A stretch of DNA of 64,000 nucleotides. Origin: Schizochytrium sp. TIO01 (taxonomy: Eukaryota; Sar; Bigyra; Thraustochytrida; Thraustochytriidae). The stretch covers positions 4,283,040-4,347,039 of the forward strand of contig SMSO01000035.1 of NCBI GenBank assembly GCA_004764695.1. Reading direction: 5' to 3'. Below the pieces are notes generated by a model. The model saw nothing but the letters and a program-made list of their open reading frames with translations. It was not told the DNA's origin and did no database searches. Below, in pieces: positions 51,319 through 64,000 of the stretch (the stretch's first letter is position 1; the number at the start of each line of letters is the position of its first letter). Made by a program: the position numbers and the translations under genes.

Positions 51319-51789
51319 CTTTAACAAATAAACCTCGTGGTAGCTACTACCAACTGCTACTACAGCAAGTGATCCTGCTATTGATGATCCCGGTACTGGT
51401 ACCTGGGTTTGTTGCCTGGCGTGCAAGGTGGCCCTTGATGTTGTGGCCAATGCGGATTTGATGTCACGGGTAGAAAATGTCATCAATTCAAAAGAGGTGA
51501 GGATGAATGGGACAAAGATCCGTTGGGTCATTTTGGGCTCACAACTTAGACCACTTTTGAAGAAACCTGGGACCACAAGGCTGCGCTTGTGAGCATCTAC
51601 CTTTGGAAGCAGTCTTGCAAAGCTGCAAAGGAACCCCAAAAAGAACTTTTTCTGATATGAACCTGAAGTTAGAATAGCGTCGTAGTGTTGTTTAGAATTC
51701 CTTGCAAGGGGTTGTGCAAAGTACAGACAGGTTCTTGGTAAGACAAGCCATAAATGCCACCTTGATAACATTAAACTAGACAAAACGCA
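51319..51789. promoter_or_regulatory. Divergent upstream region between Tctex-1 and TMC genes
   Basis: Only 471 bp separate the two start codons, so both promoters must overlap or lie close together. On the minus strand this stretch is also free of stops in frame with the Tctex-1 protein. No defined element was found by eye. Confidence 0.45.
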
Positions 51790-54700
51790 ATGGCCAAGAA
51801 AGCTGCACGAGGGCGCAGAGTACACCCTGCTAGTGGAAACGATTCTGAAAGTGGTGCGGATGGGGAGGATGACTCAGAAAGTGTCTTTGAGTTTGATGAT
51901 GAGAAAGATTCAGGGAAAAATGCATGGGATCATGGACCTCATGGTAGAAACAAGACTCCTTTAGAAAGTAGCAAAACTGGATACGGGCAAAGCGCAAATG
52001 CAGATCACCCTAGTGGTGGAGGATACTACGGTTTCGACACTAATGCTATTCGCGACGAAGATAGTGACGCTGGAGTTGAGCTTTTCATGGACGCGCCGCA
52101 ACATCAAAAAACACACCGTGCCATTGAAATGAGTTTTATTGACCTTGATGATGACGAAGATGACGTCAAAGAACTAGGAGCATCTGGCAATGACCGGAAT
52201 GCTCATTTTGTAAGTAGTGCAAACCAGGATGCTCAATTTGCTCATAGCGCTGCAGTACATGTAAACGGTAATTCTTTTAGCAATGGCCAATCTGCAATTC
52301 ACGATCGAAATGTTCCCATGCAGAACAAAGGCAGAGCAACTTTGCCTGGAAAGGGAGAGAATACAAACAAAATTTCTAGTGATAATGATAGTGATGACGA
52401 AGATGAGTCTGTCGATATGCTAGGCATCGATGATGGTGCAGAGGAACTCCTTGGAATTAAAAATCTCCCGGGAGCAGGCGGTGTGGCATTCATGAACCCG
52501 GAGCTTGAAAAGCGTGTAGAGAAAATGGCACAAGTTATCAAACACTATAAAGAGCAAAATAAAGCATTGCGTGAGAAACAGTCTGTAGCATCAGAGGAGG
52601 TCAAACGTCTCCGCAATGAACTGGAGCGACTTGAAGATGAGAAGGAGGAAGCTGAATTAAAGGCCGAAAGAGAACTTCGTATGATTCAGTTTAAAAACCT
52701 AGGAGGAGGTGCTGGGCCCGGAGGTGGAAGACATCTCGCCACGGATTTGGAGGCTCAACGAAAGCGCGAAGAAGCTCGAAGGCAAATGTATGCTGCTAAC
52801 AATGACCAAGGTGATGACTATGAAGCCCTTTTGGGTCTCCAAGACACGGTGCGCTCACATGGAATCATAACTTTGATTCGAAAAAGGTTTGCTCGAATCA
52901 TCCATAAATACGACCCTCTCCAAAAAGATGTGCGCCGCGTAGAGGCGCGTTTTGGAAGTTCAGTGGCTGCGTACTTCTACTTTTTCCGCTGGATGATTGC
53001 CAACTACATGATTCTTATGCTGATAGGAGTGATTTTCCTCATTCGGCACCTGGTTGCTCTTTTTTCGTATCAAAATTTAAGTGAAGAGGATCGACAGTTA
53101 TTCTACAATAGTGCAAACGAACCAGAGCTTGCCTATGACTGGACAAGCTCCGATTGGTCAAGCTTGTCTTCGTTTTTGCCCAAGTTTCTTATGCTCTCTA
53201 GTTTCAACCCTGGTGACTCCGGAACGCAATACATAGAAGATAACCTTTTCTCGGGAACTCCCATATACAACGCAACTGGTTCTGAGGTAACGCCAATCCA
53301 ATATCACGACAATCTTGAACTCGGTGAGCGTATGGACTATATCAGCATTCTCATATTTTGCAATCTTATAGTTTTAGGATCTGTCATCCGCAAATGGATT
53401 CTTGAGGATAGAAGGGCAAAGGCGTTTGGTTTATTTGAAGATCTCGATAAGCAAAGCCGTTTCGCACAAAGTGCGTTGAATGCATGGGACCATAGTCTTC
53501 GGGATCCACGTGAAGTTGAAGATTTAAAACACTCCCTCCTGGACCAATACTTCCTGAGCGTGCACGAGCTGCACACAGACAATCTAAAAAAATCGCGCAC
53601 TTTTAAAGAACGCTTAAATCTTCTTTTACGTCGCATAGTATCTAATATGGTCTATCTTGGTGTCCAAGGCAGTAGTGCGTATGCCATTATTTACCTCACA
53701 GCGACTTCGTCGCAAATGAGCTCAACAGTTTTACAGATCATCAGCGACAATTCTTCTTTACAATGGCTCTTACCAGTTGTAACATTAATTTCAGGATCAA
53801 TTGTCCCCCTTGCCGTGAGTGTTATTAATGCTTTGCTCCCTACTGTAGCAAAAATACTTACGTCATTTGAAAAATGGGATGATGCCGGTTTTCATACAAA
53901 ACTCATGCTGTTCCGGCTCTTTGTGGCTAAAATTCTTAACGCTTTGATTCAGGTCACCTCTTTCCTCCAACTATTGGATCCTTACCTTTTGCGCGGTGCA
54001 ATTATTATTAGTCAAACTTTTGATTTGACTGCTCGTACGAATACAGAAAAACGTTTGACATCTGTAGGATCCACATATGGCAGTGAAGGTACTATTCCCA
54101 GAGGCCTTGACGAGTGCAGAGCAGATTACTATGGGGCAGGAATTTTTCAGCTTGTATTGACCGAATTCGTCATTTCAAAGTCCACATTTGCAATTATTCC
54201 TGCAGTTAAATATGTCATATCTAAGTTACGGAAGAAACCCTTTGAACCTGGAGAGTTTCATGTCGCCAAGCATATGGTCGACTTGCTTTTCTTTCAACAA
54301 CTTTGCTTTGTCTCATTTCCGTTCTTTCCATTTGGAACATTCTTCGTTGGTGTGATGATGTTTGTTGGGTTCAAAGTGCAGGTGCGTACACTCATGGCAT
54401 TCATGCAGAAACCTAAGAAACCATGGAGCGCGAAAGACGCTGCAAACTTCTTCATCAAGTTTTTCTTTTTTACGTACGCTGTCAGCTTTGTCGTGTTCTG
54501 GTACATTCTCTCTAGCAATACATTGCCTAAGACATGTACACTCCAAGAACATGTAATCCAGGCCTCCTTTGGGGGTCTTGACCCAATGGATGAGTGCTTC
54601 AATGATGACCCTGGGAATTTAAACAATACATTAACTTGCTTCATGAATGGTCGCACTGTAGAAGAGATCCGTCTGGCGGAGAATCGTGCTCCAGGACTTG

Positions 54701-55140
54701 AGGAGCTTCGATTTTGGGAAGAATATTTTGTGGCCAGTGTTCCTGATGGTACTTTTTCTGACAACCAAACTATAGATACGGAAGGCTACCTTCGAGATCT
54801 TCTAGGCTATCCAAGTTCTACTGCTGTGGGATTTCCATCATTGGCCACTTGCTCTCTAAGTTGTGGGCCGTTCGTATATAGTGTCAATTATTATTCAACC
54901 CTCGATATATACCTCACTTCCCACATCGAGACCTTCTACAAGCTTCTCACTCAAACACCTCTGTTTGTATGGGGAATCGCTATTCTACTTGCGCTTCGTT
55001 ACCTCTTCATGAAGAACACTATAGGGGTTCTCTATGAATTACAGCAGGAGAAGGAGATCTCGCTTCGCAACCTCGTAGCAAATCTCGAATCCAAGATCAA
55101 GAAACTTACCACCAGGTTGAACAAGATGAAGAACGAGTAA
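51790..55140 (+). CDS. TMC (transmembrane channel-like) protein
   Basis: A 1116-residue protein with ATG in good context. Residues 1-240 are acidic and disordered. Residues of about 235-300 form a coiled coil (KRVEKMAQVIKHYKEQNKAL onwards). The membrane region starts near residue 388 with VEARFGSSVAAYFYFFRWM, the conserved TMC entry to the first helix. About ten hydrophobic segments continue to about 1085, including SIVPLAVSVINALLPTVAKI and the TMC-domain stretch FHVAKHMVDLLFF...QKPKKPWSAKD. The usual CWET motif is replaced by DECRADYYGAGIFQL at the equivalent place, so it is a divergent member. The tail is a short basic helix. TMC proteins are anoctamin/OSCA-fold channels, mechanosensory in animals; in a flagellate a role in sensing or ion flux is inference. 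Confidence 0.9.
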   Translation: MAKKAARGRRVHPASGNDSESGADGEDDSESVFEFDDEKDSGKNAWDHGPHGRNKTPLESSKTGYGQSANADHPSGGGYYGFDTNAIRDEDSDAGVELFMDAPQHQKTHRAIEMSFIDLDDDEDDVKELGASGNDRNAHFVSSANQDAQFAHSAAVHVNGNSFSNGQSAIHDRNVPMQNKGRATLPGKGENTNKISSDNDSDDEDESVDMLGIDDGAEELLGIKNLPGAGGVAFMNPELEKRVEKMAQVIKHYKEQNKALREKQSVASEEVKRLRNELERLEDEKEEAELKAERELRMIQFKNLGGGAGPGGGRHLATDLEAQRKREEARRQMYAANNDQGDDYEALLGLQDTVRSHGIITLIRKRFARIIHKYDPLQKDVRRVEARFGSSVAAYFYFFRWMIANYMILMLIGVIFLIRHLVALFSYQNLSEEDRQLFYNSANEPELAYDWTSSDWSSLSSFLPKFLMLSSFNPGDSGTQYIEDNLFSGTPIYNATGSEVTPIQYHDNLELGERMDYISILIFCNLIVLGSVIRKWILEDRRAKAFGLFEDLDKQSRFAQSALNAWDHSLRDPREVEDLKHSLLDQYFLSVHELHTDNLKKSRTFKERLNLLLRRIVSNMVYLGVQGSSAYAIIYLTATSSQMSSTVLQIISDNSSLQWLLPVVTLISGSIVPLAVSVINALLPTVAKILTSFEKWDDAGFHTKLMLFRLFVAKILNALIQVTSFLQLLDPYLLRGAIIISQTFDLTARTNTEKRLTSVGSTYGSEGTIPRGLDECRADYYGAGIFQLVLTEFVISKSTFAIIPAVKYVISKLRKKPFEPGEFHVAKHMVDLLFFQQLCFVSFPFFPFGTFFVGVMMFVGFKVQVRTLMAFMQKPKKPWSAKDAANFFIKFFFFTYAVSFVVFWYILSSNTLPKTCTLQEHVIQASFGGLDPMDECFNDDPGNLNNTLTCFMNGRTVEEIRLAENRAPGLEELRFWEEYFVASVPDGTFSDNQTIDTEGYLRDLLGYPSSTAVGFPSLATCSLSCGPFVYSVNYYSTLDIYLTSHIETFYKLLTQTPLFVWGIAILLALRYLFMKNTIGVLYELQQEKEISLRNLVANLESKIKKLTTRLNKMKNE

Positions 55141-55321: not shown

Positions 55322-58300
55322 TTAGGCTGGTGAACCAGATTCCAATAATTCGCGAATCACGGGATGGACTGTTGCTTGCCCGTCAGGATCTAATATTTTT
55401 TTCAGTTGTTCACGCTGCGATGGCGAACAAGTCAAGGCAGCACGGTACAAATATGCAAACGCATCATGATGGAACGAAACGCCACCAGGCCATAGTGTCT
55501 CAGCCACAAGCTTTTCAAGAACCTCAACGTCAAAGCCCAATTCGGATTTGCCATGAATGTCTTTTTGAGTGTCTTCGGAGTGCACTACATCGCGTAGCAG
55601 GTCAAGAGGCTCCGCATAGATGTTGTCCGGTTCAATCATAAAAGTTCGCTCTTGAAAGAGGGCTAAATCACCTGGGCTGGAAGCAAGGCTATTCAGGTCA
55701 GGGTGAAGCGCCACAGCTTGCTCTCTTGCAGCATTGCGTAGTTCACTCCACTCAACATCAGTGAAGACGGAGTGCATGTGCTTTAAGAGAGATTGGATGA
55801 CGAGAGATTCACATTGCGGTTGTGCACGCAAGACAGGGACATGTTTTACAGCCATACTCAAAGCACCCTGGCGCAGAGCATCCACCTCGTCTTGCGCAAA
55901 AACGAGCAAAGCACGCCATGCGTGAGTTAACACTGGATCACAGATCTCTAGCATACAGGACGAGCGGAGAGCATCCAAGGCTGCTAGGCGCAAATGGAAG
56001 GACTGTGCCGGATCGGAGCATTCGTATACAATGTTCGCCAATCTACTCTGAATGTCTGGCTGTTGCGCTGCGTACGCACCAAGAGCACGAACAGTTGCCG
56101 ATTGAGAGCCCTCGCCACTACAAATCTGAGAGGAGTACATACGCAGAAGACGTTGCCCAACCTCGGGGGACCGTTTGGCTTCACTTGAGGCTAGGAAGTC
56201 CATGCGTGCGATCAACTCAGGCGGATAGACCACACCTTGCTCGTTCATAGTAACATATTCAACTGCTTGAAGAATCTGGTCATCTTGAGATGACGATGGC
56301 ACATCTTTGGTTGCTATCAATGCGGCGAGGCGGCGACGACAATCTTCGCTGCGCAAATTCGTAGCCATCACTTCAGGAGACAGCAGACGACAAGCAAGAG
56401 AAACGCCGTCTTCTGTCTCACATGCACTGTCGCCAGCTTCCTTCGCCAGAGCAAATATCGCGTCTGACAGGTTTTCACGCGGAACCAGGAGTGCGAACTG
56501 CCACAAAGAGTTCCACACTGCAGTGTGCATCATTGGAATGGGACCGCATGTGCTTAGAACCGCTCGCATGGCTTCAGCTAACGGTAGCTGTAAATCAAGC
56601 ATTGCTGCACGAGCCCGAGGCCCTGCATGCAAGTTGCGTTCCCGAATGGTTACAAAAAGCTGCCATAAGTGGAGAAGTAGGCCATGTGTATGGTTGTGCC
56701 CCAAGCGCGGGGGTGTAGATGTGCAGCTATTAACAAGCATTGCAAGAATCTCTCTAATCGTATCCAAGAGACGGAACTCAGGACACAATGAGGCCAAAGC
56801 ACGGGAAGCCATGGAACGCGCCATGACATGAGGCTGAGAAGCGCACGCAAGGAGAAGCGGCAAGAACGGCAGAACCTCCTTGTTTCCAGCCTCCCATTCT
56901 GCCTTACGTTCGCCCACGAATGCGTCTTCTTCACCTTCAGGAGATACAAACGCAGGTCGCAAGCGAGACAAAATCAAAAGCATTGGGTATAGGCTTGGGT
57001 CCATCCCGCCAATCTTCTTGTGGCCCGAACGTTGTTCGTTTACGATGCGACGCATGTTCTCCAAGACAGCCATGAACACATCTCCATAGCGCTGCATGAA
57101 GAATGCTGAATTAATCTGACTAGCACCCACAGTACGACTGACTCGCATGTTTTCTTGGCCGAAAGCCCTCTGAATGACTCGTGCAAACACCATCATGGAA
57201 GAGTTTCGTACTTGCCATGCCTCAAGACGAAAGCCTCGCAAAGAAAGCAACAGTAATTGGGGAAGATACTCTTGCAGCTCATGCTGAAGTGACCCATCTT
57301 CAAAAAGGAGCTTGAGGATGTTGAGCGCGTGCACTCGAATACGCATATCGTCCGCATTACCAGCCAGGTACATGAGGCGGGTAGCCATGCGCTCCAAGAG
57401 AATCGTACGTCCCGCACGAGGCTCGGCACAGGCCAATGCCAAAAAGGCGCTTGCAAAGCCGACTGAACGACGCAGGTAGAAACCTTGTCGTCCATCCTCA
57501 AGGCGGTGCAGAAGATAATTCGTCCATTGCATTGGTAACTTTGAAAGCGCAGGGCTGCGGCGTAGACGCAACAATCGAGCAGAAATTCCTTGAAACGAGT
57601 TGCTTACAAAGCCGATAGCACCCATGTGGCGCAGCCGCAAGAGAAGCTGCAACTGCTGCACTCCAATAGCATCAACGCGAGGAGCAGCTAAAACAAAGGC
57701 ATCAGCCTCAAGCTCCAGCGGGCACGTTCGAACAATGGTCTCCATACTCATTGTTACCTCACGAATCACAAGCCACCCGTTGACAATAACATTCTCCGTA
57801 TTATGCATGGGTCTATCCATCAGGATAAGATCATCACTGTCAGCATTATCGCCATTGTCGTCATCATTATGATCATCGTCATCAGAAAGTTGCTCCATGT
57901 CATTATCGGGCACGCCGTCGCCTTCGTCATCTTCATTTTCATCCTCCCCACCGTTTTGTGTCTTGCAAACAGCTTTAGCGGCGGTCTCACAAGCGTTATC
58001 AAGCATACTCAGAGCGTCATCTGCAACTTGTGCCCACGCTTCCGGGTCACGGCGCAGTGTAGTTTCTGAAGCCTCCCAGCAGTTACGAAAGGCCTGCAAG
58101 AGCCCAAAACACTCTTCGGCACCTGGGCGGCGGTACGAATCAATGAGATCTGATATGAAGGCTCTTGCAACAACGTCGCGGGGCATGTTCTTTCCAACAG
58201 CCTCCTGCTCAAAGTCATCATTCGGGTCTTCTTGATAGGGCTCAACAGGCCCTTCGTCAGGGAAAAGAAACATGTTCGGTTCCATACACCGTTCACGTAG

Positions 58301-61300
58301 CTTCTGGTCCCCAGTGAGGTAGTCGACACGGATGCCAGCCTCGCGCAGTTCACGAGTACCGGTGCATTCAACAAACTTAGAAGGTTCACGTACACCTACA
58401 ACAACGCGCTTCACGCCTGCTGAAATACAACGTGATGTACAAGGGCGGTTGCCAGAAAGACGTACACTGCACGGCTCCATCGTTGTATAGATAGTTGTGT
58501 TTTTGGCGCCACCTTTTGCAATATCGTCAATATCTTCAGCCTTTTCAGCAAAGCCCCCAATCTTCATAAATGCAGTTTCTTCAGCATGGGTATTTCCAGG
58601 CATTTCGCGACTGAAGCCACGCGCAAGAATGGTTTGATCTTCTTCGCGAACGATAATAGAGCCAACATTGTATGCCTTCTCCGCACGCTCACATTTGAAT
58701 GCTTCTGCGCAAGAGAGATGCATCCGTGCAAAATCAAGGCGACCCTGCACTGCGGGATCATGGCGTGATGTGGGTTCGCCACGCAGGCCGATAGCCCACC
58801 CTGCGCCAAGCACATACTTTTCATAAAGTACTTGCAAAAGCGCACTACCACCGCGAGCATTCCGCACCTTATGAGACTTGGCAAGTCGCACAGCCCATTT
58901 GACCAGGCGATGCACAGAGTCCCACGATTCAAGTCCAGGGAAAGGTGCAGGTACTCGTCGCATCACCTCTAACACCATTGTGCGTGGTTGTTCATGCACG
59001 TCACGGATAAGACTCAACAATGTAAAAGTGTGGTCTTTATGTTCTAGGGTGCATACTTCAGGAGATGATGCAAAAACCTCAAGCATTAGCAACAAGTGTG
59101 AAAGAACAGTACTCGCACGCTCACGAGGCATATCAGGATAGATTTGTTCAATCATTGTGCGCTTAAACCAAACTAGGAACTCAAGTACCCTCTCGCGATC
59201 TTGGTCTGAGACATTTTGTTCAGCAGCCCGCTTGCTCTGTGTCATTGCAATACCAATCCACTCGAAAAACAGTTGAGAGCTGCGGCGCATCCCCTGCGCA
59301 CAGCTTTCGGACATGGATTTGTGGACAGTGTGCGAGTACGCTACACGAGCAAGCTTCAGTACCTCAGCGCTTGGCATGCGTTGTTTTTTCGTAGGGCAGA
59401 GTACCAGCTTCGCAGCACGTAGCTGCACAAGTGCATCAGCGTGCTGGAGACCCTGTCGTACAGCGCTTGATGGAATTCGCACCTCCTTAGTTGATGTGGA
59501 GATTCCAGCAGCAGCAGATGTGCCGTCGGTTACGTCGTCGTTTGCTTCAGCCATGCTGACATCTTGATCACTTACATCCTTGCTCGAGGTGGAAGTATTA
59601 GCTGGGATGGTTTGGTTTTCCATATCTGGAACAAATTCGACGCGAAGTCCCGCACTAGATAAAGCTCCCCATAAACGCAGTTTGTCTTCTAATGTTGGCT
59701 GACGTTCTTCCAAGGCTTCCTGTAAAGTCGCACATGTCACACCATTCACTGACAAAAGGAGTTCAGGGACAATACGTGTAGCCACCTGCTCGGCAGCGTT
59801 TGTATCCCCTTTCGTGAGGGCATCCAATAGAGGTGCAAGCCAAACTTGACGTGCATTGAGCCCTTCGTTTTTTTCCAAGTTGCTGGCAATATCGCGAAAG
59901 AGTTTGGTGCTGACTGTGTAAACCTGGCCGTGCTCTTCAAAACAGCGGAGTAGGGCAGGCATGAGATCAGGCTCAATTTGTAGAATACCTCTTGCTCCGT
60001 CGTGCTCAAGAAACCGTCCAACAGCAAGCAAGGCTGCTCGAAGGTTCGTTGTTTGAGATCCGGGGTTGTGTAGTGTGACCTCCTGCAGGAGTCTCCGAAG
60101 AAGCTTACCACGCGCCTCAACTGCAATATCCCTCTCTGCTGCAAAAGAATCAGACAAAGAGGCGGAATTTGCGAAGGCAATGGCCTCGAGAACCTCGAGC
60201 GATGCATTGAACAAGGGTTCTAAGTAATAGCGAGCCTTACGCGAGCCTTGGCTCCAATTATCAAGCACAAAATCAAGGAGCTCAAGGCATCTTTGGCGAC
60301 CGTGATCCTGCCACAAGACAAGGGCATCGTCCTCGAGTTCACGAAGCCCGTGCTTGAAGGTTTTGCACCAAGCTTCAAGCCCGGTTAGACAGTAGCCTTG
60401 GACAGTGGCATTGAATACATGTGCTTCAGAGATAGACATGAGCTTGACATAGATCTGGTCCGAGACCTTGCTGTCTCCAGATGAGTCGCCTGCATCGCTG
60501 CCAAAGAGCATGGAGCGAGGTACACAAGCAAGAAGATTGCGCAAAAGCAACGCAGCCGCAGGCTCAGTACAACTCAGAGCTAGCATTTCTACAAGCGAGC
60601 GAAGTTCATCAGAATGTGTGATTTCTACTTGCTGGTTGTCCTGGTTGACTGGAGACATCTCTTGAAGCGCCTGATGGCCACTTGTGACCTTGCAGAGTTT
60701 GATGATGGCGCGACGAATCTGCGCAGGTGTGCATAGTGCAAGATCGAGGCGAACCACAGAAATGCCAGCAAACATCTCAATACTCTTTGTTGCTGACGCA
60801 GCATCCGAATCCGCGGCGGTTTTGACCCAAGGGAAAAGGCACTCCTTTGCGAACTGTCGCACAACCTCTTGGTCTTCAGGAGAAGCTGCGGCAATTCGAT
60901 CGGAAGCACCAGGCGCTTGCAGATACTCCATTAGAGCTTGAACAGGAATCTCTGCATTAGCAAGTGCCACAGAAGCATCAAGGACGGTATCAGGACCAGA
61001 GACAAGTGCAGGTGCGTTTAATTCTTTTTGAAGGCTGTGCAGTGTGCGAAAGATCATGCCTGGATCTACGTGAGCGACCACCAAGTCTCTGCATGGATTA
61101 GAAAGTACGAAGTTACGGAGACCAAGTGCTACATCAAGTTTCTCGGTGGGGTTGTCCAGGGCACAAAGAGCTGCCACGCAGACCTTAACTTGCTCTGCAA
61201 GGGACCTTCTCAAGACTTGGGTGTTTCTCAAGGCAGGCTTGCAGAACTGCTGACGCTGCTTGACGGAGCTTGAGTGGTACGGGCGCCGAAAAGATCTGCG

Positions 61301-61661
61301 TACAAATACGAATTAACGCCGCATGGTCTTCGCACAAGCATTCTTGCTCTTCGCGTTGCTGGCAGCAAGTGCACGGTGTTTCTGAAAGAGAGGCTAAGAC
61401 ACACCACTTTCCTGACTTTACGGCACCTTTTGCGTTCGACAGTTTAGCTACACGCCCCAGTAGGTTGTCTGCGTGCAAAAGTGCTTCCACGAGCCTACGG
61501 GCAGCTGAGGCGTTGGAGCATGTAGAGACCTGTTTCCACAGAGCCTCGCGAGCTGCCGTATGCGATGCACCAAAACTATCCTTTATCATATACACGTCTC
61601 GTCCATGTGCAGGGACAGGTTGCCGCCCACGCAGCACAAGCTTGCGGTTTCGCTTCACCAT
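55322..61661 (-). CDS. THADA/Trm732-like HEAT protein with embedded DRAP-type deaminase domain (frame break near 5' end)
   Basis: About 2112 residues if one frame change is allowed near 61205-61231; from ATG 61661 the length is 6340 nt, one more than a multiple of three. Residues up to ~970 are HEAT-like and include FLVWFKRTMIEQIYPDMPRE and LVKWAVRLAKSHKVRNARGG, typical of the THADA/Trm732 N-terminal half. From about 58780 to 58250 a zinc deaminase domain follows: GNTHAEETA (58580-58594), YTTMEPCSVRLSGNRPC (near 58440-58480) and GVREPSKFV, matching fungal RIB2-type DRAP deaminases. THADA sequence then resumes. After an acidic linker (~57800-57990) comes the DUF2428 core with GFYLRRSVGFASAFLAL, RVHALNILKLLF and WQVRNSSMMVFARVI. 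Trm732/THADA partners Trm7/FTSJ1 for 2'-O-methylation of tRNA position 32; DRAP deaminase acts in riboflavin synthesis. The fused activity is unknown. Confidence 0.85.
61184..61231 (-). other. Frame transition in the THADA-like gene
   Basis: The 5' frame (from ATG 61661) ends at TAA just after KHPSLEKVPCRAS. The 3' frame opens one base later and continues for almost 2000 codons. Joining after ...KHPSL gives ...RRSLAEQVK, a smooth helix. Explanations are a one-base sequence error, a real indel, +1 frameshifting at CTT-GAG, or a 22-nt GT-AG micro-intron (61205-61184, GTCCCT...GTTAAG), which would also restore frame. Confidence 0.7.
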
Positions 61662-64000
61662 TGTCCCCAGATATTCAAGCTCGCACAACAAATCGACAGC
61701 TCAACTCAGTTCTAATTTTTTCTGCAGGATATCGATCGGTTTTGATAAATCTATCAGGGCCTCTGGAGACTTCACCAAGAATTCACCGAGCAATTCCCAA
61801 GTTTCTAACGTTGGACAATACCAATTCTGCACCTTTTAATTCCTTCGAACCGGTCAAACTTGGTCAAAATTCCCAAGAAGCTTGAACGAATCAATTGGAC
61901 TTCTTGGCCTTTCCCACAAAGTTTGCAATCGAAGCTTTAAGGTGCCTCTAAATCTCACGAGAGAGGGCCTCACGGGAGAGGTCTGTGGGCCTCTTGCCTC
62001 AATTGATGCTCGGACTTCGCGCCCGACCTCGTTTCCAAGGCTCGAGAGCTGCTAAGACGTCACCCAGGACCGTCCTAGAGATAATTTCTCCCAAATATGT
62101 CCAAGCACGCGCAAGATTTCTCCTGCGCAGCCTGACCACCGCGCGAACCGAGGCCAAATCAGCTCTGTCGCAGTCTCTTCCACTCCTCACGATCCGCATG
62201 GACTCTTACCATCGCTTATACTATTCATGCTTCTACCATTTTTCTTAGACAGGCCTACTCCCTCTTATCTCCAGGCGCTTAATCTGAGACGGACGGAGGC
62301 AGTACTGGAGTATACAATAGGAGGTCCCTAGTAAAGGGTGTTAACGTATTTGAGTAGAAGTAGTAGCATTGGTAGTTGTAGTAGGACATGGCTAGCAGTT
62401 AGAAAGGTAAGAATTTGATAGAGTTAAGAAAGGCTAGTCAGAGTTTTTGGTCAAGCGATCTGAAGTAGAATGAAGAGCGAAATTGGGATTGGTGAGATGA
62501 CAGGGTTTCATTAGGGAGTTAGTTTAGAACTGGTGCGGCACGTGGCATAAGTAACGATATGTAGGTTGTTTAAAAGAGAGATGTTGCAGGGATAAGATCA
62601 AACGCCACGGTTGAAGGAATGAATACATGCGAGAAAATAGTACGTGAAGTTAAGCAGAAACTCTAATTTACGACTCTCTTTCCCTCTATTGAAATTTGCT
62701 CGTAGATGCTTTGAAGCTTTATCGTGCCATTTACTTAATGTTGCAGAAAGCAAAAAGTATATTCAAACATATCAAACAAGTGAGTTGTGTACAGAATGCA
62801 TGAAACGGAGGGGGGGAGAAGAATATGTTAAGATTCTCTCGAATTTGCCTGTTCCACTCTTAGTGCTTTCTAAAGAAATCAGGAATGACTGGATGTCCAA
62901 CATGAAAATTCTATCGAGATAGTATTACCCGCTCTAATGCATGATTTTGGCCTTTCACTTGTGTTCTGCAATCTTACTGTTTATATAAGAATTTAGTTGT
63001 ACTAGCCTTTTTGAATAGTATAATTGTTATAGCTCTGTTTACGTTCATAGATTTCAGCTGTCTGAAGAGCAATCAACGCACTCAAATTATGCATTTTAGC
63101 AGCTGTGTCGTAACAACTGGCAGTCACCGCACGTATTCGCGAGCACTGGTCGTAGTCAACACACAATATGATATCTTGCTTACAATGCCTGTACGAATAG
63201 ACGACCTAGAGGAGCATTAATAGACTTATCTGCCACCTTTGCTCCCAGGAATCTGTCAGCTCATCACAAGTGACTCATTGATCCGTTCGCCAATAAGCTT
63301 TTATACACCGTCCTGTGCACACCCTGTCCGCGCCAGTCGCCCAATATCTCCCCTGCAGAATCTAGCTGCTTCTTATTAATAAACAAAATCACGCCCCCCC
63401 CCCCCCCCCCCCACTTGTATATCTCTAATTTCTTGTTTATACTGGAGCTTTGTTCTAAGTGCACACACACCCCCCTTTTTTTTTTAAGTACCCCCAAATG
63501 AGCGCAGACAAAACTTATCAGAATCAGATAAAACGAAGCCTTTACTTAACCGTACCTGCTGGTTAGCATGAGAAGAGCACTTCTAGGCGCCTTAGATCTT
63601 TTCCAAATACAACGCTATTCTTGGAGGTACTCACTATGTTTTCTCTCGCACTGCCCTGAGGAGTCTCTCTGCCGTATTTTCATTAATTACTCTAGTACCC
63701 TCTTAGAACGCTCTCAAAACCTTCAACGGATCTCCGCGCTGTGCACAGCAAGAAAAACTTTGGCCTGAGATACCCGGCCCGCAACTCTCAAATTATGCTC
63801 AAGGCGCTGAGCATATTGATGGTGCTGCCTGCCCGCCCGCTTCCCTCCAGCGCTGCTAAGACTGACAGTCTTTTGAAGGAAGACTTGTAAAGCTGCAACG
63901 AGGCGCTTTGCGCTTGGATTGAGATTTGCTGATCGTACAGCGCGTGCCGCATAATTTAACGCAAAATCCTCACGAGGTCCACTTCCACATAGGATGGCAG
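61662..64000. other. Upstream flank of the THADA-like gene, no gene seen
   Basis: A GC-richer stretch to about 62230, presumably the promoter region, is followed by AT-rich DNA with short frames only (92 codons at most). Homopolymer and low-complexity runs cluster at 63394-63495. Confidence 0.5.
63394..63412. repeat. Poly-C run (19 bases)
   Basis: Nineteen consecutive C, followed 50 bp later by CACACACA, a second C run and a T run of ten or more. Homopolymer length is prone to sequencing error. Confidence 0.85.

Follow-up and report, generated by a model that had tools for sequence, protein, structure and literature searches.

A Rib2-type deaminase domain nested in a predicted THADA/Trm732 protein of Schizochytrium sp. 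TIO01

The locus and its THADA/Trm732 sequence

The 64,000-nucleotide stretch of Schizochytrium sp. TIO01 DNA analysed here (the window; contig SMSO01000035.1, positions 4,283,040 to 4,347,039) carries on its minus strand a gene predicted to encode a THADA/Trm732 protein in which a deaminase domain is nested. Most of this gene (55322..61312, from the open-frame list, Pfam and motif mapping) lies in one frame, 61312-55322, which is open across 1996 codons and holds deaminase and THADA/Trm732 sequence together; residues are numbered such that residue k begins at position 61312-3(k-1). Pfam places the deaminase, DUF2428 and TPR_Trm732_C in this one frame, confirming the uninterrupted reading from the deaminase into THADA that was originally predicted. 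The residue and family evidence is computational and is drawn from the DNA sequence of a single 64-Mb genome.

The gene begins outside the main frame, with its ATG at 61661 in a different one, and the two frames overlap near 61190-61250; the putative N-terminal part of the gene (61185..61700, minus strand) matched no family. We infer that a short, even very short, intron or an assembly indel near 61190-61250 joins this part to the main frame, and an indel is favoured because this genome also shows a one-base frame break within its GTP cyclohydrolase II gene. As the N-terminal break lies ~2.4 kb from the deaminase, it has no bearing on the fusion. The total protein comes to about 2,100 residues, close to the length of human THADA plus one deaminase, and the first 600 codons of the main frame matched no Pfam family.

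THADA encloses tRNA with the anticodon loop held within its shell and serves 2′-O-methylation (Nm) of tRNA position 32, and sequence similarity among its homologs is low (PMC12145424). Downstream of the deaminase, the sequence FISDLIDSYRR at residue 1052 is followed by the DUF2428 core of THADA/Trm732 (residues 1097-1367, 57212..58024, minus strand; Pfam E 6.4e-41, 140.8 bits against a cut-off of 27) and by TPR_Trm732_C (residues 1369-1549; E 4.3e-23, 82.4 bits against the same cut-off), while human THADA (8y2o) aligns to residues 1173-1554 with an E of 7.6e-33. Judged by these matches the downstream flank is certainly THADA, as had been claimed for it. An acidic low-complexity loop inside DUF2428 (57835..57946, minus strand) falls, in the alignment to human THADA, roughly at the disordered human segment Glu973-Cys1042. 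All three conserved THADA motifs were located by phmmer alignment on the minus strand: LLRLRHMG (57620..57643) corresponds to motif 1 (human LLQSRHRG), which contacts the tRNA anticodon (PMC12145424), LRRSVGFA (57452..57475; YLRRSVGFA with the preceding tyrosine) to motif 2 (human ATRRSAGIP), and NHTHGLLL (56672..56695) to motif 3 (human NHIHGTLL), an FTSJ1 contact. The tRNA-stacking tryptophan of human THADA, Trp1054, is kept in the same alignment as Trp1180; here 8y2o chain numbering is taken as 28 above that of PMC12145424, as the motif positions indicate. Human Thr798 and Tyr843 could not be aligned, and the tRNA- and Trm7-binding motifs that were tested are retained. A gene for the partner methyltransferase Trm7/FTSJ1 is present in the genome, with an E of 1e-102 to human FTSJ1.

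The THADA-like character of the upstream flank stands in part. It carries LVKWAVRLAKSHKVRN at residue 803, and residues 600-770 (59003..59515, minus strand) give a collinear match to TPR_Trm732 in the expected order (profile positions 81-237, E 5.6e-4), which scores 19.9 bits against the Pfam cut-off of 27. Human THADA did not align to the upstream flank, and with the two flanks joined without the insert its alignment likewise begins only at the DUF2428 core. The protein shares with human THADA and yeast Trm732 (partners FTSJ1 and Trm7) DUF2428, the TPR region at the C-terminus, the tRNA-stacking tryptophan and motifs 1-3, and differs from human THADA in possessing a deaminase and in an N-terminal half of weak similarity. 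With a small reservation, we take the upstream part to be probable THADA sequence.

The nested deaminase and its relatives

The deaminase domain occupies residues ~849-1027 (58255..58768 on the minus strand covers residues 849 to about 1020), upstream of the DUF2428 core and between LVKWAVRLAKSHKVRN and FISDLIDSYRR, and was recognised by Pfam, by a sequence search against solved structures, by a fold search and by residue comparison. Across the whole frame, Pfam assigns it to PF18785 (Inv-AAD) with an E of 3.9e-30 and to PF00383 with an E of 4.7e-13. The nearest solved structure by sequence is Aspergillus oryzae Rib2 (AoRib2; E 4.5e-14), with RibD proteins behind it at 8e-9 and worse. An AlphaFold model of the domain, built from three sequences (mean predicted local distance difference test score, pLDDT, 57.7, with much of the core at 66-83), retrieved as its top fold match 7ds1 (E 8.7e-10), which is AoRib2 with 2,5-diamino-6-ribitylamino-pyrimidinone 5′-phosphate (DARIPP), followed by other AoRib2 and RibD entries, the APOBECs lying far lower.

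The zinc deaminase described in the original prediction is complete, and its motifs map as claimed. HAEE (residues 909-912, 58577..58588) supplies the zinc ligand His909 and the catalytic Glu911, with Asn907, a phosphate contact, directly ahead of it; PCSVRLSGNRPC (PC-x9-C, residues 947-958, 58439..58474) supplies the zinc ligands Cys948 and Cys958 together with Arg951, Leu952 and Ser953, which correspond to phosphate and ribitol contacts of AoRib2; and GVREPSKFV (from residue 973, 58370..58396) includes Glu976, the equivalent of the ribitol contact Glu136 (all minus strand; roles from PMC8256712). AoRib2 is a monomer that holds zinc by His61, Cys102 and Cys112, uses Glu63 for catalysis and contacts DARIPP through Thr53, Asn59, Arg105, Leu106, Ser107 and Glu136 (PMC8256712). 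Substrate, zinc and nearby positions were kept relative to AoRib2 at every one of the 13 tested, one as a Thr to Ser exchange: Thr53, Asn59, His61, Ala62, Glu63, Glu100, Cys102, Arg105, Leu106, Ser107, Cys112 and Glu136 are S, N, H, A, E, E, C, R, L, S, C and E here, and the DARIPP side-chain contacts Thr53, Asn59, Arg105, Ser107 and Glu136 are S901, N907, R951, S953 and E976. The zinc motifs of eukaryotic Rib2, H-x-E and PC-x8-9-C, are likewise found (HAE at 909-911, PC-x9-C at 947-958). Asn59 and Leu106 are common to AoRib2 and the nested domain and lacking from four actinobacterial relatives, which places the domain with the Rib2 type among the sequences compared. On these family and residue comparisons, the nested deaminase is of the Rib2 type, a riboflavin synthesis class.

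Other assignments were considered and rejected. The Pfam name Inv-AAD (Invertebrate-AID/APOBEC) could be read as that of an editing enzyme and carries no weight, because an AoRib2 fragment outscores the nested domain on the same PF18785 model (140 against 110 bits). Membership of bacterial RibD/RibG was ruled out at 68.8 bits to TIGR00326, where 156.35 are required, and by the reductase domain not being fused, RibD_C occurring only on contig C4. Membership of the TadA/ADAT2 tRNA adenosine deaminases was ruled out at 17.4 bits to the TadA model, where 150 are required.

AoRib2 (PDB 7dry, 7drz, 7ds0, 7ds1) shares with the nested domain its fold, zinc site, PC-x9-C spacing, GNTHAE and RLSGN motifs and DARIPP side-chain contacts (Thr53 being Ser here), whereas it is a stand-alone monomer with a charged tail and the domain described here is nested in a protein of ~2,100 residues. 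Bacterial RibD/RibG share the deaminase fold and pyrimidine chemistry, but have a C-terminally fused reductase and deaminate first, whereas no reductase is attached here. Small actinobacterial deaminases (L023, L024, L033 and L034) are 33-40% identical and share the zinc site and the equivalents of Arg105 and Glu136, yet are stand-alone and without the Rib2-type Asn59 and Leu106; these bacterial relatives adjoin ribA or a dihydrofolate-reductase-family gene. In L033 and L034, which are from Streptomyces linear plasmids, the small deaminase lies next to the dihydrofolate-reductase-family gene and is annotated with a tRNA wobble-editing Gene Ontology term, yet RibD-type deaminases match it better. 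Among viral contigs, no relatives of the deaminase or of the THADA core were found.

The riboflavin pathway in the genome

Single-family profile searches of the 64-Mb genome, made exon by exon, identified every other riboflavin enzyme searched for, namely GTP cyclohydrolase II, DHBP synthase, lumazine synthase, riboflavin synthase and a reductase. The sole RibD_C reductase frame, on contig C4, has no deaminase attached; its best solved matches are 2,5-diamino-6-ribosylamino-4(3H)-pyrimidinone 5′-phosphate reductases, which belong to the reduction-first step, and it matches the archaeal reductase model TIGR01508 below cut-off. PF18785 is matched in the genome only in this window. PF00383 is matched eleven times, ten of them besides the nested domain, and these ten resemble dCMP, guanine/cytosine or TadA-like, TAD2 (L007), TAD3, cytidine and further dCMP-like deaminases and two degenerate copies. 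The other PF00383 proteins tested against the RibD model all reach 35 bits or less, compared with 68.8 bits for the nested domain. A second Rib2/RibD-like deaminase, whose existence had been put forward as a check, was not found in the PF18785 and PF00383 genome searches. With PF18785 matched only here and the other PF00383 matches resembling further deaminase types or degenerate copies, the nested domain is the sole candidate found for this essential step.

Several other features were seen in the course of these searches. The GTP cyclohydrolase II gene (L019:1486-2790, minus strand; G000:C31 around 4270766-4271327), which encodes the first enzyme of flavin synthesis, has an N-terminal PAS/LOV-like domain (PAS_9, E 3.1e-14). 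Among the solved structures that match this domain are the LOV domains of aureochrome and phototropin, and its motif GRKCNFLQ contains the LOV cysteine. The product is thus predicted to be a flavin-making enzyme that carries a flavin-type light sensor, and a limited literature search recognised no paper on a LOV-GTP cyclohydrolase II fusion. The one-base frame break in this gene (G000:C31, about 4270917-4270945) is located at a short A run and is probably an assembly indel. The genome has another GTP cyclohydrolase II-like gene, of more divergent sequence, at G000:C6:1547103-1547537 (L020; 63 bits, 467-residue frame). At G000:C33:1782988-1783209 (L012) a cytidine-deaminase-like stretch without the usual cysteines sits in a 2742-residue frame, followed by sequence resembling SAM and EF-hand repeats, and G000:C2:62531-62866 (L013) encodes a degenerate deaminase-like protein without the PC-x-C motif. 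Elsewhere, G000:C4:608161-617209 encodes a polyunsaturated fatty acid synthase of the PfaA type in which segments are repeated, a feature suggestive of a thraustochytrid. Within the window, the convergent neighbour of the THADA gene is a long plus-strand frame (51775-55140) with a transmembrane channel-like (TMC) domain, and a run of ~20 cytosines at 63394-63414 is possibly an assembly-sensitive tract.

A bifunctional protein and the alternatives

We propose, with fair confidence, that the gene encodes one bifunctional protein in which an autonomous DARIPP deaminase domain is lodged in a working THADA shell. This reading is based on the continuous frame, the homologies of both parts, the kept active-site and motif residues, a pathway complete in its other steps with no second candidate, and the Trm7 gene. 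In the proposed model a single polypeptide would be made with both halves active. The Rib2-type domain, situated between helical repeats ahead of DUF2428, would perform the third step of riboflavin synthesis, with zinc held by His909, Cys948 and Cys958 and water activated by Glu911, deaminating DARIPP to ARIPP. Reduction would probably come first, through the Rib7-like reductase encoded separately on contig C4. Independently, the THADA shell would bind tRNA and Trm7/FTSJ1 for 2′-O-methylation at tRNA position 32. The deaminase may work alone as a domain standing off the shell, in the manner of monomeric AoRib2 (PMC8256712), and the ability of this deaminase type to work as a monomer would explain why its insertion is tolerated.

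Several points weigh against this reading. The structure model of the deaminase is of modest confidence (pLDDT 57.7), the model of the wider region (AlphaFold, residues 662-1254, without alignment) is not good enough to locate the insertion within the THADA shell or to fix its exact site, the upstream flank matches THADA weakly, and the equivalent of human THADA Glu1225 is not clearly kept. The genome was searched exon by exon, and missing matches there are no proof of absence. Assembly indels are suggested by the frame breaks near the N-terminus and within the gene for GTP cyclohydrolase II, and the fusion is known from the DNA of one genome alone.

A rival view is that the deaminase is intronic or sits on a transcript of its own, the continuous frame then not standing for a fusion protein. 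Some in-frame GT..AG pairs are available around the insert (27 of 77 possible), weaker ones such as chance would give, and one yeast-like donor, GTATGT, is present at 58817. The only pyrimidine-rich acceptor, at 58251, lies 566 nt from this donor, a distance that would break the frame, however, whereas the frame as it stands is open through both junctions for all its 1996 codons. The insert also resembles its host gene in composition: its GC content at third codon positions is at the limit of the range seen along the gene and its codon score just beyond that range, toward commoner codons, such that nothing marks the insert as foreign. An intronic or separately transcribed deaminase is for these reasons unlikely. 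That unrelated loci were falsely joined at the junctions during assembly is scarcely credible; single-base errors in coding sequence do seem to be present in the assembly, but the frame is kept at both ends, composition and codon use are near the range of the gene, the borders are free of flanking repeats, and the genome's only Rib2-like deaminase is located here. Insertion by a mobile element was rejected on the same border search. We regard it as very improbable that the upstream part belongs to some other protein, with the deaminase close to its end and the C-terminal half of THADA attached by fusion. The 600 codons without a Pfam family and the failure of human THADA to align upstream would fit such a protein, while the collinear TPR_Trm732 match in the expected order, the total length and the low similarity among THADA homologs (PMC12145424) argue against it.

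The original prediction had also allowed for a deaminase repurposed towards RNA. Its most plausible target would be an anticodon-loop base presented by THADA (e.g. C32 to U), and riboflavin deamination would then have been lost or taken over by an unrecognised enzyme. THADA does hold the anticodon loop inside its shell (PMC12145424), and the top-scoring Pfam model bears the name of the AID/APOBEC deaminases. Fungal Rib2 scores still better on this model, however, and the domain retains the residues that contact the DARIPP phosphate and ribitol. In the fold search APOBECs rank far below Rib2 and RibD, the TadA model reaches 17 of the required 150 bits, and the genome has the remaining riboflavin enzymes but no alternative candidate for the deaminase. 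With the substrate contacts kept in the sole DRAP deaminase candidate of an otherwise complete pathway, repurposing is disfavoured and quite improbable.

The bifunctional protein proposed above has a parallel in yeast Rib2/Pus8, in which a DRAP deaminase likewise has a tRNA position-32 modification protein as its fusion partner, one that makes pseudouridine-32 in cytoplasmic tRNAs (PMC7822408). The yeast deaminase is C-terminal and its partner an RluA-type pseudouridine synthase, whereas here it is internal to a non-catalytic methyltransferase cofactor. Family, fold, residue and genome-context evidence agree with the original claim that a deaminase of the Rib2 type forms an inserted domain of THADA/Trm732, in a fusion distinct from RIB2-PUS8, and the different partner and architecture suggest that this fusion is independent of that in yeast. 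As Pus8 forms pseudouridine-32 and THADA serves Nm32, both known partners of the deaminase act on the same tRNA position, a link that with two cases may be coincidence. The other functional suggestion of the original prediction was a link between riboflavin synthesis and tRNA modification. A functional coupling of flavin synthesis to position-32 modification would explain why a DRAP deaminase was fused twice, to Pus8 in yeast and to THADA here, and in its extreme form the anticodon loop that THADA holds would be a further substrate of the nested deaminase; we consider such coupling doubtful.

No paper linking THADA or DUF2428 to such a deaminase was found in the open literature, subscription papers and eukaryotic protein databases lying outside the search. 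The architecture appears to be new, and both of its domains are of known kinds. If real, it would mean that this vitamin B2 enzyme has twice been paired with proteins serving tRNA position 32, and yeast Rib2/Pus8, so far an unexplained oddity, would become part of a pattern open to testing; domain fusions often indicate shared regulation or localisation. It would also suggest that THADA is able to carry a globular enzyme within its repeat shell. Finally, the analysis names a candidate for the riboflavin-pathway deaminase of this lineage.

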